Shown: positions 46,891 to 52,231 of the stretch, piece after piece | Layout: each line of letters starts with the position of its first letter | How positions within the stretch are numbered: the stretch's first letter is position 1 | Assembly: GCF_947489565.1 (NCBI RefSeq) | Contig: NZ_CANLEA010000010.1 | Coordinates: 62,001 to 126,000 of the forward strand | Length of the DNA: 64,000 bases | Direction: 5' to 3' | Origin: an uncultured Kordia sp. | GTDB lineage: Bacteria > Bacteroidota > Bacteroidia > Flavobacteriales > Flavobacteriaceae | Notes under the pieces: model-generated | The model's input: only the letters and a program-made list of their open reading frames with translations | What the model was told of the DNA's origin: nothing | Database searches by the model: none | Made by a program: the position numbers and the translations under genes

Positions 46891-47685
46891 TTATTTTGAA
46901 AATTTTGCTAATTCTTCTGTTATAGTAGCCATGATTTTATCGGCTTCTTCTCTATATTTTGATTCAGGGTAAAACTTGACCAACGACTTATACGCTGATC
47001 CTGCTTCGTTTAAACGATCTTCCATTAAGGTTTCAAAGCTTCGGATAGCAAGATTGTACATCGCGCTTAAACGCAAATACATTGCATCTTCTCTGAAAGA
47101 TGTTCCTGGAAAATCTGAAAGAAAGTTTTCTGTTGCTTTGATAGCAGCTTTGTAATCTGAAATTGTATTGTATTGTTTTGCAATTTCGTATGCTTTCTTT
47201 TCTATCTTAGTTGTTAATTCATCTACCATTTTATTGGCATCATCAAGATGTTCTGAATCTGGATAGTTATTGATAAATCCTTGTAATTTATTAATGGCAG
47301 TATATGTATCTCTTTGGTCTATGCTAAAACGAGGCGATTGCATATAATAACTTTTTGCTTCATAAAAAGAAGCTACTTCTACGCTATCACTCTTTGGATA
47401 TGAACGTGCAAAACGCTCAAACTGATATCCAGATACAATATATTGTTCAATTTCAAACAACGTGCGTCCGTACATAAATGTAACACGCTCTCCTTGTGGC
47501 TTTCCTCTAAATTTAGGTACAATTTGCTCGAAAAGTCTACTTGATTTTTTAAACTTTTTCTCTTTGTATAAACGCTCCGCAAGTTTGTATTTTACTTTCG
47601 TATCTTCCGACTTTAACGCTTTTTGGTATTCACTACAAGAAGCGAGCGTAGCAACTGCTAGAATTAGGTATAGAAATTTCCTCAT
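46891..47685 (-). CDS. bamD: Outer membrane protein assembly factor BamD
   Basis: A lipoprotein of the BAM complex with five TPR-like repeats. The signal MRKFLYLILAVATLASC ends at the lipobox LASC. Repeats such as YKLAERLYKEKKFKKSSRLFEQIV, then FMYGRTLFEIEQY and FERFARSYP, then ALKSYYEAKSYYMQ-like helices fit BamD. I place the start at the ATG ending at 47685 (264 residues); the ATG ending at 47697 lies in the expected transcription start zone of the -7 element at 47702-47709. First gene of the bamD-rpoZ-coaBC run after the inserted cassette. Confidence 0.92.
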   Translation of the reverse strand: MRKFLYLILAVATLASCSEYQKALKSEDTKVKYKLAERLYKEKKFKKSSRLFEQIVPKFRGKPQGERVTFMYGRTLFEIEQYIVSGYQFERFARSYPKSDSVEVASFYEAKSYYMQSPRFSIDQRDTYTAINKLQGFINNYPDSEHLDDANKMVDELTTKIEKKAYEIAKQYNTISDYKAAIKATENFLSDFPGTSFREDAMYLRLSAMYNLAIRSFETLMEDRLNEAGSAYKSLVKFYPESKYREEADKIMATITEELAKFSK

Positions 47686-47701
47686 CTTTTTAAACATCTG
47701 G

Positions 47702-47709
47702 CAAAAATA
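47702..47709 (-). promoter_or_regulatory. Putative -7 promoter element of bamD
   Basis: CAAAAATA on the plus strand reads TATTTTTG on the minus strand, a full match to TAnnTTTG, 16 bases before the ATG at 47685. No clear -33 box. It would let bamD-rpoZ-coaBC-DUF4835-recN be transcribed independently of the genes beyond the inserted cassette. Confidence 0.45.
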
Positions 47710-47995
47710 GGTATTTATTATGTATTATGAAAACATTTTTAAAGCGCTAAAATAACTTTACAAATCTGATTTTAGTATTCTTTATCATAGATTTAACTTT
47801 TTAGCTAGCTTGTAAGCGTTTTTAGGTGTCTTATCCTTTTGGAAGATTAGACATATTTCGCTTTTAGATTGTTGATTTTTTTAGCAATTCTAAATTTTAT
47901 CAAACGAAGCATATTTGCCATTTTGTGACTGTGAGAAAATTTTGTAATTTTAGTAGATTCTAAAAACGTATAACAACTCCTTAAATTGTCTTGCA

Positions 47996-50227
47996 ATGAT
48001 TCATATAGATCGTACTGCTGTCCCAATTCCATCAGCTCTTCTTCCAAACAACAAAAGATTAGCAAGAGAACTTGAAGAAGCAAAAGCTTTTTTTGAATAT
48101 GCCGAACACTCAAGAGGACAACGGCGATTTCGTTTTAAGAATTATTTAGATAAAACCATTAAAAATGCGCTAAAAGATCTTTTTCATGGAAAATGTGCAT
48201 ACTGTGAAAGTTTAATATTGACCACATTTGTAGGAGATCTGGAACATTACCGACCTAAAGGTGGTGTTTCAGAATCTTCAGACCATCCAGGATATTGGTG
48301 GTTGGTAAATGATTGGGATAATTTATTAGTTTCGTGTAGAAACTGTAATATTAAAAAAAAGAATTACTTTCCTATTAAAGATGAAACGAAAAGAGCGTTT
48401 TCGCCCAATGATGATTTGAATGACGAGAATCCTCTTATTTTAAATCCATGTATCGATCATCCAGAAGAACACTTTATGTATACGGATAAAGGTGTGATTG
48501 TCTCTAAAACAGAAAGAGGAAAAGCTTCTATCATGATTTTAGGCTTAAATCGTACAGCGCTTGTGCTAGCTCGTGAAAAAACCATCATTACTATTAAAGC
48601 TGCTATCGCGAGAATATATAAATTACTTGAGTCGGACGCAAAAGATCCTGAATTTCTAAAATCAGAAATCGAGATTTTGCAAAAAATGACAGCTAGCTCC
48701 GAAGAGTATGCTGGACTCAAAAGACAGTATATTTTATCCTTTTTAAAAGAACTTGAAGAGTTTAAAACGGAACCTTTACAAACGAAATCTTTCGAATATA
48801 CCAAAACCTACACAGACGACGAAAAGCAAGCCGCAACCAAAGAATATGAAGACTTTACACAAGAAGTTGAAAGCAGCTATATGGATGTAGAATCTGAAAT
48901 GAGTTCTATGTATATGCTGAAAGAACATTTTGTCGCTAAGATTGAATTGACCAATGTAAAAACGTATACAAGTCAAGAATTCAATTTGGTAAATGATGAA
49001 GGCAATTTTGTATTGTGGTTCATGTTATTAGGAGAAAATGGCACTGGAAAAAGTACCGTATTAAAATCCTTATGCATGAATTTGTGCGATATTGATTATT
49101 TTCAGGATATGATTCGAATGGATTTAATTGATCCAACAAGTTTTATAAAACACGGAGAATCTAAAGCCACTATTAAAGTGTGGATGACAGGAAGTAAAAA
49201 TCCTCGAATATTAGAAATAGAAGAAGATTCCGTGACATTTACCAATGTTAAAGAACAAAGTGTTACGCTACCATTATCACTACAGGAAGAAAATATGCAA
49301 AGTAAAGTTTGGTCCTCTCCTACTTTTTTATTGGCATATGGCGCTACACGATTGCTTCCAAGAGGTTCCAAACATGAAGCTAAACATATTGTCAACAAAA
49401 TGAATAAGCTTGACAATCTTTTCAATCCTTTTATTCCGTTAGGAGATGCTGAAAAATGGCTTTTGAATTTAGATGAAAAATTGTTCCGACGAGCTGCCAT
49501 TATCATCAAAGATTTATTACGCATTCCAGAAGATGAGGAAATTTTAAGAACCGAAAATGAAGTAAAAATATATGTCAATCATCATTTGGAAACCTTCAAA
49601 GATTTAAGTGATGGATATCAGTCCGTAATGGCATTGACTACCGATATTTTACAATTGGTGATGAATTTCTGGGAAAATCCAGATGAAGCCAGAGGTATTG
49701 TTATTATTGATGAAATTGGCGCACATCTACATCCGCAATGGAAAATGCGCATTGTGAGTAGTATTCGCAAAGCCTTTAAAAACATGCAATTTATTGCTTC
49801 CACACATCAACCGTTGTGTTTGAGAGGTTTGGATGATGGCGAAGTGATTTTGATGCGACGAGATGCGGACAGACATGTAGAAGTGATCACGGAACTTCCT
49901 AATCCGAAAGAATTGCGGATTGGACAAATTTTAACCTCTGTATTTGGCTTGAGTTCTACGATGGATCCAGAATTAGAAGCTGAGTTTAATCGCTATTTTG
50001 AATTGAGAGCTATGAATTCAAGATCCGAAGAGGAAAAAGAAGAAATGAGCGAGTTGGAAGCGCAATTGAAACCTGATTTATTGTTAGGTGAAACTTTGTT
50101 AAATACGCAAGAATATAAAATCGTAAAGGAAAAATATGAGTTTTATAAGAAAAATGAAAAACCAAGTGATCTAGAAAAGCTAACAGATGATACATTATCA
50201 GCTGTACAAGAACTTTGGAAATCGTAA
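47996..50227 (+). CDS. HNH nuclease - ABC/AAA ATPase fusion, Septu-like defence effector candidate
   Basis: A 743-residue fusion. Residues ~1-250 are an HNH nuclease of the TIGR02646/PtuB type: zinc Cys pairs CAYC (67-70) and CRNC (114-117), active-site Glu83-His84 in DLEHYRPK and the downstream blocks PGYWWLVNDWDN and GLNRTALV. Residues ~305-670 are an ABC/SMC-like ATPase of the AAA_21/PtuA group: Walker A GENGTGKST (346-354), signature-like LSDGYQSVMAL (537-547), Walker B IVIIDEIGAHLHP (568-580, Asp572-Glu573) and switch His604 in STHQP. A charged tail follows. In Septu (PtuAB) and retron Ec78 these parts are two proteins. The ATG at 47996 is 23 codons before the first helix. No signal peptide, so it is cytoplasmic. 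A second HNH gene follows 23 bases on. Confidence 0.85.
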   Translation: MIHIDRTAVPIPSALLPNNKRLARELEEAKAFFEYAEHSRGQRRFRFKNYLDKTIKNALKDLFHGKCAYCESLILTTFVGDLEHYRPKGGVSESSDHPGYWWLVNDWDNLLVSCRNCNIKKKNYFPIKDETKRAFSPNDDLNDENPLILNPCIDHPEEHFMYTDKGVIVSKTERGKASIMILGLNRTALVLAREKTIITIKAAIARIYKLLESDAKDPEFLKSEIEILQKMTASSEEYAGLKRQYILSFLKELEEFKTEPLQTKSFEYTKTYTDDEKQAATKEYEDFTQEVESSYMDVESEMSSMYMLKEHFVAKIELTNVKTYTSQEFNLVNDEGNFVLWFMLLGENGTGKSTVLKSLCMNLCDIDYFQDMIRMDLIDPTSFIKHGESKATIKVWMTGSKNPRILEIEEDSVTFTNVKEQSVTLPLSLQEENMQSKVWSSPTFLLAYGATRLLPRGSKHEAKHIVNKMNKLDNLFNPFIPLGDAEKWLLNLDEKLFRRAAIIIKDLLRIPEDEEILRTENEVKIYVNHHLETFKDLSDGYQSVMALTTDILQLVMNFWENPDEARGIVIIDEIGAHLHPQWKMRIVSSIRKAFKNMQFIASTHQPLCLRGLDDGEVILMRRDADRHVEVITELPNPKELRIGQILTSVFGLSSTMDPELEAEFNRYFELRAMNSRSEEEKEEMSELEAQLKPDLLLGETLLNTQEYKIVKEKYEFYKKNEKPSDLEKLTDDTLSAVQELWKS

Positions 50228-50250
50228 CGTTTTAATTACTAGCATACGCC

Positions 50251-51306
50251 ATGATAAAAATTAATCGTCCAGAGACTCCAAATATTAACATCTATACAGA
50301 AAAGACAAAATCGCTCTCTCTTGAACTGCGCACCAATTTGTTGAAATTGATTGCTGAAGATGCTGTCCATTTTCAAGGTTTCGTTTCGCGATTAGAAGAT
50401 GAAAATGAAATGTTTACCAAAGCTGAGGAAGAAACTTTGGAAGCCATCAATTATTATGCTGATCCCGCTAATTTTAAAGTGGAAGGCAAAAAAGCACCAA
50501 GTTTTACGGTGTATAAAGACAAAGAGTTAAAAGAAAAAATTCGTACTGTATTTAATGATAAATGTGCGTATTGCGATAGTAAGTTTTTAGCCAATAGCAA
50601 TGCCGATATTGAGCATTTTAGACCAAAAAAAGCATTCAATCCTTTTAGAGATGCTGTCGATGAAAAACTCATAGAACCGGGTTATTATTGGTTGGCTGCT
50701 GATTGGCACAATTTACTATGGTCGTGTATTCTTTGCAATCGAAAAAGCAATTTAGATCAACCCAATGTTGAAGGTTTGAAACCACTAGGAAAGAAAAACC
50801 GCTTCCCTATCGCCGAAGAAACAAAACGAATCCGATCGCACAACCAAGATTTAGATACTGAAAAAGATATTTTATTGATTATTGATCCGTGTGTCGATGA
50901 TCCTGACGACCATTTTGTATTTCCTGTGAACGAAGAAAAGGACGTTGGCATTGTAAAAGCAAAAGTTTTAGACGATAATAAACCAAGCAAAAAAGGCGAA
51001 ATCTCCATTGCCTTGTATGGTTTGAACCGAACCAAATTGGTTGCCGATCGTATGGAAGCTGGTTTGGACTTAAAATCTATTTTCATGGGACTTTTAGATA
51101 GTATTGAAGCCTTCTCACGAAAGAAAAATGCGGGAGAAGATACTTCCGAGGAAATCGAAAAGTTTAAATTTCAAAAAGCGCGATTTCAATCGAAAATGAA
51201 AGAGACATCCGATTATTTAAGCTTTAAAAAAATGCTGCTAGAAGATTTTAAAAACTTCTCGCAACTTCAAAGATTAGGACTTACTATTGAAGGATTATTG
51301 AAATAA
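50251..51306 (+). CDS. Stand-alone HNH nuclease, PtuB/TIGR02646-like
   Basis: A 351-residue protein of the same HNH family as the N-terminal domain of the gene before it. Cys pairs CAYC (105-108) and CILC (159-162), active-site Glu121-His122 in DIEHFRPK, YYWLAADWHNLLWS, and the late segments IIDPCVDDPDDHF and ALYGLNRTKLVADR line up with the fusion protein's PCIDHPEEHF and GLNRTALVLAR. It has no ATPase domain but a longer N-terminal extension (~95 residues before the first Cys) and a C-terminal helical tail. It starts 23 bases after the ATPase gene and is surely co-transcribed. It may be a second nuclease subunit of one complex, or a regulator. Confidence 0.82.
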   Translation: MIKINRPETPNINIYTEKTKSLSLELRTNLLKLIAEDAVHFQGFVSRLEDENEMFTKAEEETLEAINYYADPANFKVEGKKAPSFTVYKDKELKEKIRTVFNDKCAYCDSKFLANSNADIEHFRPKKAFNPFRDAVDEKLIEPGYYWLAADWHNLLWSCILCNRKSNLDQPNVEGLKPLGKKNRFPIAEETKRIRSHNQDLDTEKDILLIIDPCVDDPDDHFVFPVNEEKDVGIVKAKVLDDNKPSKKGEISIALYGLNRTKLVADRMEAGLDLKSIFMGLLDSIEAFSRKKNAGEDTSEEIEKFKFQKARFQSKMKETSDYLSFKKMLLEDFKNFSQLQRLGLTIEGLLK

Positions 51307-51313
51307 AGATTTG

Positions 51314-52231
51314 CTATATTTTTTTTGTATTACTTATTTTATGATGATCTAACACGGTAAAACCATCTTCATCGTAATAGAATGCTTTTTCAAAAGCGAC
51401 ATTCATCAGCAATTCTTCAAAAGTATACGAATGCAGTTTGTGCACTTCTTCATTGAAAGCTTCATCATGATAGGAAACCATGATTAAAAACTCGCCGTTG
51501 AGTGTTTTGAGTTCTTCTTCTGTGAATTTATACAAAGGTGATTCTTCTGTAATTTCATGCACTAATGTCCATGTGGTTGGCAAATATGTAATATGATCTC
51601 TTTCCAGCTCTAGCTGATAAAAATTACGTCTGTAACCTTGCTTTTCATCGGGTTCTGTCATCGCCAACGTGACTTTTACACGCGGATTGATCATGACATC
51701 GATCTTACTATTCATCAAGCGAAACATCAATGCTTTTCCCTCTTTAAAATCACGGTAAATCATATGATCACTGAATTGAATAGATGCTTTTGGTTTGGAA
51801 AAACGTCCGTACAACAATCCTGTGACGAATGAAAAACTTAACAACCCAATCAAAGCTTGAAAACTCGACACAATTCCTGCCAATACACTTGTTGGCGCCA
51901 TAGCTCCATATCCTAACGTAGTAATGGTTTGTGAGGAAAAGAAAAATGCATTTACAAAATCTACTAAAAAACCTTGCGGTTCTACAGAAATATATTCGAC
52001 ACCAATACTCACATAGATGGTGGCAAATGTCATATTGATGATAAAGTATACTAAAAAAACCAAGCAAAAAAAGCGTGACCAGCTTATATCTACCAAATAC
52101 GCGTACAAAGCAGAAATTCCAACTTTTCCATGCAGGTGTTTAATATTAAACGAACCATCTTTGTTGACCATTCGTTTTGCGGATGTAATGGTAGCTTCTC
52201 CTAATCCTGGGTCTTTTACTTTTTTTGCCAT
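51314..52231 (-). CDS. Kir-type inward rectifier potassium channel
   Basis: A 305-residue channel of the prokaryotic Kir family. Two membrane helices, around 50-75 and 115-140, flank a pore with the filter TTLGYG; after that comes a large cytoplasmic beta-sandwich domain (FSKPKASIQFSDHMIYRDFKEGKALMFRLMNSK onward), the hallmark of KirBac. It is convergent with the HNH gene (8 bases apart) and 9 bases past dapA on the same strand, so it is probably read from the dapA promoter. No link with the nuclease genes is known. Confidence 0.88.
   Translation of the reverse strand: MAKKVKDPGLGEATITSAKRMVNKDGSFNIKHLHGKVGISALYAYLVDISWSRFFCLVFLVYFIINMTFATIYVSIGVEYISVEPQGFLVDFVNAFFFSSQTITTLGYGAMAPTSVLAGIVSSFQALIGLLSFSFVTGLLYGRFSKPKASIQFSDHMIYRDFKEGKALMFRLMNSKIDVMINPRVKVTLAMTEPDEKQGYRRNFYQLELERDHITYLPTTWTLVHEITEESPLYKFTEEELKTLNGEFLIMVSYHDEAFNEEVHKLHSYTFEELLMNVAFEKAFYYDEDGFTVLDHHKISNTKKI

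Follow-up and report, generated by a model that had tools for sequence, protein, structure and literature searches.

Septu type I systems combine a PtuA-type ATPase with a PtuB-type HNH nuclease, encoded as separate single-domain proteins in one operon, and a table in PMC12948488 lists the PtuA:PtuB ratio of Septu as 6:2. Retron I-A systems (Ec78/Eco7 and Ec83/Eco4) also have PtuA and PtuB as separate proteins, and the PDB titles of the solved complexes give ratios of 4:2 for Ec78 and 2:1 for Ec83. The targets named in the literature vary between systems: tRNA-Tyr for Eco7 (PMC11555353) and for Septu EcB88 (PMC13096335), nicked DNA for a different Septu of E. coli (work cited in PMC11555353), and single-stranded DNA for Ec83 (work cited in PMC12948488). 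A PtuA-like ATPase is also coupled to a different nuclease set in the ptuXYZ operon, the three genes of which encode the PtuA-like ATPase, a DUF262 nuclease and a RelE-type RNase; the available portion of PMC11980606 describes PtuX as unlike PtuB and contains no fusion of the type reported below.

The locus studied here lies in a stretch of 64,000 nucleotides (the window) from contig C10 of a 6.42 Mb Kordia genome. Its features are:

46891–47697, minus strand: left flank, bamD-type lipoprotein gene (PF13525), with a counterpart of 75–100% identity in all 11 genomes of the genus
47996–50227, plus strand: HNH–ATPase fusion (PtuB-like domain and PtuA-like ATPase), 743 aa, recognised from the ORF and from profile and structure matches
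47996–48760, plus strand: N-terminal HNH domain of the fusion, aa 1–255, with Cys67/70/114/117, Glu83-His84, Asn109 and Asn118
48761–48919, plus strand: linker, about aa 256–308, of low confidence (mean pLDDT of 36–54 per block from residue 261 on)
48920–50224, plus strand: PtuA-like ATPase domain, aa 309–743, with Walker A 346–354, D572-E573 and H604
50251–51306, plus strand: free-standing second HNH (PtuB1-type), 351 aa, 23 bp downstream of the fusion on the same strand
51314–52231, minus strand: right flank, ion channel gene of the inward-rectifier type (PF17655, PF07885), with a counterpart of at least 80% identity in 10 of the 11 genomes

The original prediction was that a single chain of 743 aa begins with a PtuB-like HNH and continues into a PtuA-like ATPase, and this was borne out by the ORF, which is exact and open from its ATG start, by profiles and by residues. 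C67, C70, C114, C117, E83 and H84 of the HNH part, and G346–T354 of Walker A with K352, D572-E573 and H604 of the ATPase part, were all found at the positions given; K352, D572, E573 and H604 did not vary in any of the 27 fusions aligned. When the two parts were checked separately, aa 1–254 gave PtuB/HNH matches (PADLOC PtuB1, E 1.9e-68; NCBIfam PtuB, E 1.2e-16, which is under the model's curated cut-off), and a profile of fused HNHs matched solved PtuB chains with a best E of 4.8e-13. The region of aa 312–700 matched PADLOC PtuA models and solved PtuA chains (E 1.6e-18), and the best PADLOC PtuA1 match extended over nearly the full length of the fusion (E 5.4e-211); weaker matches and generic ATPase or other matches were also present in these family and structure lists. 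The best PHROGs matches included families of unknown function and plain HNH endonucleases.

In the predicted model of the fusion, a strand-strand-helix arrangement surrounds the HNH motif (80–84, 110–114, 115–121), and Foldseek matched the model to PtuA with an E of 3.8e-17 and a TM-score of 0.33 by query and 0.50 by target. The pTM of the monomer was 0.52, and the arrangement of the HNH relative to the ATPase is of low confidence. Promoter and terminator scans were near the expectation from shuffled sequence (18 found versus 14.6, and 4 found versus 2.1, respectively). A sequencing or frameshift artefact and chance were ruled out as sources of the fusion, since it recurs in one frame with 83% identity in a further Kordia genome and is found at 58 distinct loci.

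The gene that follows, at 50251–51306, was absent from the earlier account of this DNA. Its product has Cys105/108/159/162, Glu121-His122, Asn154 and Asn163, and matched PADLOC PtuB1 with an E of 9.9e-75; an intact HNH motif thus adjoins a PtuA-type gene, as in Septu type I. The predicted model again has a strand-strand-helix around the motif (118–122, 155–159, 160–163). Its nine best Foldseek matches came from retron I-A or Septu complexes, the chains being PtuB/HNH by their length, with E of 0.001 or less in five of the nine and TM-scores of 0.32–0.37 by query and 0.46–0.56 by target. The profiles of the fused and the free HNH aligned as homologues over almost their whole length (hhalign probability 100). 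Because this free HNH gene follows the fusion, in the window and likewise at all 58 intact fusion loci, the proposal that the fusion fixes a 1:1 stoichiometry of nuclease and ATPase has to be abandoned.

Compared with the described systems, the pair is most like Septu type I: a PtuA-type ATPase and a PtuB-type HNH lie in one operon, the best matches in the window are PADLOC PtuA1 and PtuB1, the fusion has the Walker A, Walker B and conserved His of PtuA, and fold matches include E. coli PtuA (8eea, 8ee4) and PtuB (8eea_G, E 6.5e-3). It differs in that the PtuA of the window carries a PtuB-like domain at aa 1–254, and in having a second, free HNH besides the fused one. The closest solved structures for both parts are PtuA and PtuB of retron I-A, but the NCBIfam retron models scored below their cut-offs for the fusion (PtuA 118.2 of 500 bits, PtuB 61.3 of 150, TIGR02646 42.3 of 52.15) and for the free HNH (PtuB 46.4 of 150, TIGR02646 42 of 52.15). 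A retron at this locus was rejected, as no reverse transcriptase domain was found among the ten scanned neighbours and no retron RNA was found in an Rfam scan of 47400–51700, in which the one match was an FMN riboswitch at 19.1 bits versus a gathering score of 66.2.

The fusion architecture is already known as a PADLOC entry. Models PDLC00292, PDLC00288 and PDLC00291, filed as PtuA1, share it and matched aa 1–742, 1–740 and 1–700 of the window protein, respectively, but their one-line descriptions (AAA ATPase domain) omit the fused HNH and the second HNH. The view that this is a distinct layout therefore holds in part: it is real, recurrent and unlike the two-protein Septu and retron Ec78, but it had been catalogued in these three full-length fusion models of PADLOC (2023). 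No description of the fused HNH or of its loss of function was found in the open-access literature searched, which does not imply absence from print.

Fusions were found elsewhere in Bacteroidota, where the original prediction had proposed to look, and also in Pseudomonadota, Actinomycetota and Bacillota; some of these phylum assignments are our own and are not taken from record titles. A genome scan with the single window protein as query found nothing, and one with alignment A1 found at least 37 loci. Full-length fusions were present in at least 3 of 296 genomes of the phylum sample and at least 8 of 349 of the family sample, the window's own genome being included in both, and these counts are lower bounds as up to three candidates were scored per genome. 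Altogether 58 distinct intact fusion loci were collected, namely the window, 19 and 24 loci from genome samples and 14 from plasmid records. The free HNH was directly behind the fusion on the same strand in every one of them, with gaps of -255 to +24 in the first 48 loci. Seven phage records had a match, and none of these covered 80% of the query. Fusions occur on plasmids, and some records have nearby genes annotated or matched as defence. The neighbour scan covered 86 neighbours (100–900 aa, up to two per side) at 23 of the 24 distinct loci from the A1 scan; among the matches listed (25 of 83 families) were PDC-S06, with two members, and HEC-06, Orf5, a CBASS-type cyclase, E2, PifA and others, with one each, all as raw counts. 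Matches to mad3 and mad8 are unspecific, because these two models also hit the window's recN-like gene.

The active-site residues were compared between the fused and the free copies, using the window numbering of the fused domain. In the free copies, E83, H84, N109 and N118 were each conserved in 58 of 58. In the fused copies the four zinc cysteines and N109 were likewise present in all 58, while H84 was retained in 24 and replaced by Arg in 23, Gln in 8, Leu in 2 and Asn in 1; Glu or Asp was found at position 83 in 27 of 58 and Asn118 in 18 of 58. Thus 34 of the 58 fused copies lack His84, 48 lack at least one of the four HNH residues, and ten keep all of them (window, L073 and L152, which are of the window type, and L074, L075, L150, L151, L077, L079 and L095). 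After clustering at 50% identity, the full fused site was kept in 5 of 34 clusters. All 46 PtuBs of two-gene systems have H84, and 40 of them have the full set. The fused copy of the window keeps E83, H84, N109 and N118 and so does not show the residue loss of a pseudo-nuclease; the window belongs to the minority type with both HNH sites intact.

For Septu EcB88, PMC13096335 reports that immunity is lost when H75 or N91 of PtuB is substituted. These residues would correspond to H84 and N109 here, since the histidine of the EH motif and the asparagine of the NL motif are the same 16 residues apart in the Ec78 sequence. Given that the H75 substitution abolishes immunity in EcB88, loss of H84 should by analogy disable cutting.

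In an ATPase tree of 98 rows and 416 columns, the 52 fusions formed one clade (support 100/99), inside which the window, L073 and L152 grouped with three Rhizobium plasmid copies (L036–L038; 100/98). On this tree, H84 required 11 changes, or 11 losses if only loss was allowed, and the full HNH site 4 changes with regain allowed or 15 losses without it; the loss counts assume no regain and depend on the tree. The fused domain is under purifying selection. Between the window and genome G301 its dN was 0.157 and its dS 1.18, and the dN of its partners, the ATPase and the free HNH, was 0.063 and 0.079; between L006 and L067, both from Kordia and without the His, the fused domain had a dN of 0.199 and a dS of 2.24. 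In these two pairs dN of the fused domain was two to three times that of the ATPase and the free HNH, the dS values being near saturation. Between the window and L152, with dS saturated, dN was 0.397 for the fused HNH versus 0.281 and 0.287 for the others (1.4 times), and between L074 and L150 it was alike across the three parts (0.027–0.033).

HNH trees, built with the trait columns left out, placed window-subclade fused domains beside free HNHs and not with other fused ones: five of them in the first tree (96/85) and six beside free HNHs in the second (SH-aLRT 84). Both trees were noisy, fused row L089 falling outside in the first, and two-gene L020, L107 and L108 falling among fused and free L154 among two-gene rows in the second. 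This placement, seen while the corresponding ATPases are nested among the fusions, would fit a replacement in which a free-HNH copy overwrote the fused HNH of the window subclade, and such an event would also explain the intact active site of that subclade. We regard replacement as rather unlikely, as support for the placement was modest, a slowly evolving intact fused domain could be drawn toward intact free copies, and an AU test, for which the rows were thinned to 97 (41 fused, 41 free and 15 two-gene), did not reject a single clade of fused HNHs (p 0.466). Because that single clade was left unrejected, we prefer one duplication and fusion, after which the window type kept the ancestral site and the Rhizobium branch lost the His.

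Within the genus, the pair is an insertion between the bamD and channel genes. To judge from their Pfam families, the neighbours on the left resemble recN, a DUF4835 gene, coaBC, rpoZ and bamD, and those on the right resemble an ion channel gene, dapA, a DUF6913 gene and two genes of the 5'-nucleotidase/phosphoesterase kind. The question whether the fusion sits in a defence island had a negative answer for the window copy: the ten neighbours scanned with Pfam and the nine scanned with PADLOC included no defence genes, the PADLOC scan giving nothing but ATPase-type matches to the recN-like gene. The interval was compared in the nine of 11 genomes where clear orthologues of the two flanking genes share a contig, leaving out G303 (flanks on different contigs) and G298 (no clear channel orthologue). 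Two of the nine (the window's own genome and G301) hold the pair, their flanks lying 3619 and 4191 bp apart; in the other seven, 200–1325 bp separate the bamD and channel genes. The window copy is therefore accessory. The interval, 47698–51313 in the window, is a variable insertion spot within the genus, and contained a DDE transposase gene in G297 and a 235-aa ORF without a Pfam match in G300.

A second pair was found on contig C14 of the same genome (L006:7489-10760), consisting of a fusion of 791 aa, 31% identical to that of the window, and a free HNH of 299 aa. Pairs of this type (homologues L063–L072) were present in 11 of 11 Kordia genomes, which we judge to be unusual for a defence system, and flanking genes were common on at least one side in ten of them, G297 being the exception. 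A DNA polymerase III delta-type gene adjoins the pair in eight genomes, identified by Pfam in one of the eight and by BLAST cluster in the others. In all but one of the 11 Kordia copies, the catalytic His is missing from the fused HNH. A gene for an eCIS_core-domain protein (PF13699; L006:5738-7315) also adjoins the core pair on C14. In Kordia genome G305, the fusion (L072:8130-10943) contains a run of 157 glutamines (156 CAA, 1 CAG) in the linker between HNH and ATPase (L072:9009-9479), a feature dependent on the assembly; in the other ten Kordia copies of the C14 type the longest Q runs were 1–21.

The window pair is probably an anti-phage variant of the Septu family, and we consider it fairly probable that it represents a two-gene PtuA/PtuB-type system where the role of the fused HNH is to dock or control the free cutter. 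An ancestral PtuB would have been duplicated, one copy being fused to the N-terminus of PtuA and the other staying free as the next gene. The ATPase, as the sensor, would oligomerise like PtuA and on an infection cue release or position the HNH pair, and the free HNH would cut DNA or tRNA, as reported for PtuAB of Septu and retrons. Because of its residue loss, we infer that the fused HNH-fold domain would serve chiefly as a tethered partner for docking, regulation or substrate binding; where the fused HNH site is complete, as in the window pair and a few relatives, both copies may cut. To judge from the sequences, the usual state appears to be an active-looking free nuclease with a fused pseudo-nuclease under purifying selection. 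Such a division of labour seems the most economical reading, with the fused ATPases forming a single clade, every locus collected having a free HNH of invariant site, and the fused site lost repeatedly while the zinc cage was kept. Against a Septu variant stand the window copy itself, with no degenerate residue and no defence neighbours, and the core status of the C14 pair (11 of 11). We put forward more tentatively that these loci form a widespread branch of Septu, an obligatory nuclease/pseudo-nuclease pair from one fusion event, in which the fused HNH fold was repeatedly stripped of catalytic residues yet retained, braced by zinc, to regulate the free HNH or to dock with it, the window being a rare two-site form whose sister copy is core in the genus.

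The four HNH residues present in both window proteins and in the close relatives L073 and L152, together with purifying selection on the fused domain, could instead reflect a machine in which both HNHs of the window are active and cut together, at two DNA strands or two RNA sites, the degenerate copies being later relaxations. With a full fused site in only 10 of 58 loci, double cutting cannot be the general mechanism, and the fused domain of the window has evolved at about twice the rate of its partners relative to G301 and 1.4 times relative to L152; we regard this reading, too, as rather unlikely. A housekeeping role in DNA repair or in plasmid or replication quality control, at least for the Kordia core version, would suit the universal presence of the C14-type pair, its shared flanks and its polymerase-type neighbour, but we hold it to be quite unlikely: the window-type copy is accessory, fusions occur on plasmids, some records place them close to genes with a defence annotation or match, and the characterised relatives known to us are defence effectors. 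Lower still we place the reading that this is ordinary Septu, the fusion and duplication being neutral rearrangements without mechanistic meaning; PADLOC does file the fused proteins as PtuA1, but one clade, a free HNH at 58 of 58 loci and an active site strict in one copy only would be hard to obtain without a division of labour.

These loci provide a natural series: each ATPase has an HNH-fold domain of its own, which appears dead in most of the lineages seen and intact in a few, beside a strictly conserved free nuclease. The series separates docking or regulation from cutting and supplies ready-made loss-of-function variants; it bears on how PtuA controls PtuB and on why the known complexes hold fewer PtuB than PtuA. 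It would also set annotation right, as the fused protein is labelled a plain AAA family ATPase in plasmid records and PtuA1 in PADLOC.

Two further arrangements were observed among the collected loci. At least five of the 58, a lower bound as some loci have short flanks, have a conserved five-gene operon with genes for an N6/N4 DNA methyltransferase, a HerA/DUF87 ATPase, a protein of unknown function of about 446 aa, the HNH–ATPase fusion and the free HNH (L074:4131-11600, L150, L075, L151 and L088; four from the window's family and one from Pedobacter), and this operon looks like a modification-linked Septu variant. On plasmid pRlX3 of Rhizobium ruizarguesonis (L143:3501-6689), a gene of the fusion family is split over two frames and is probably inactivated.
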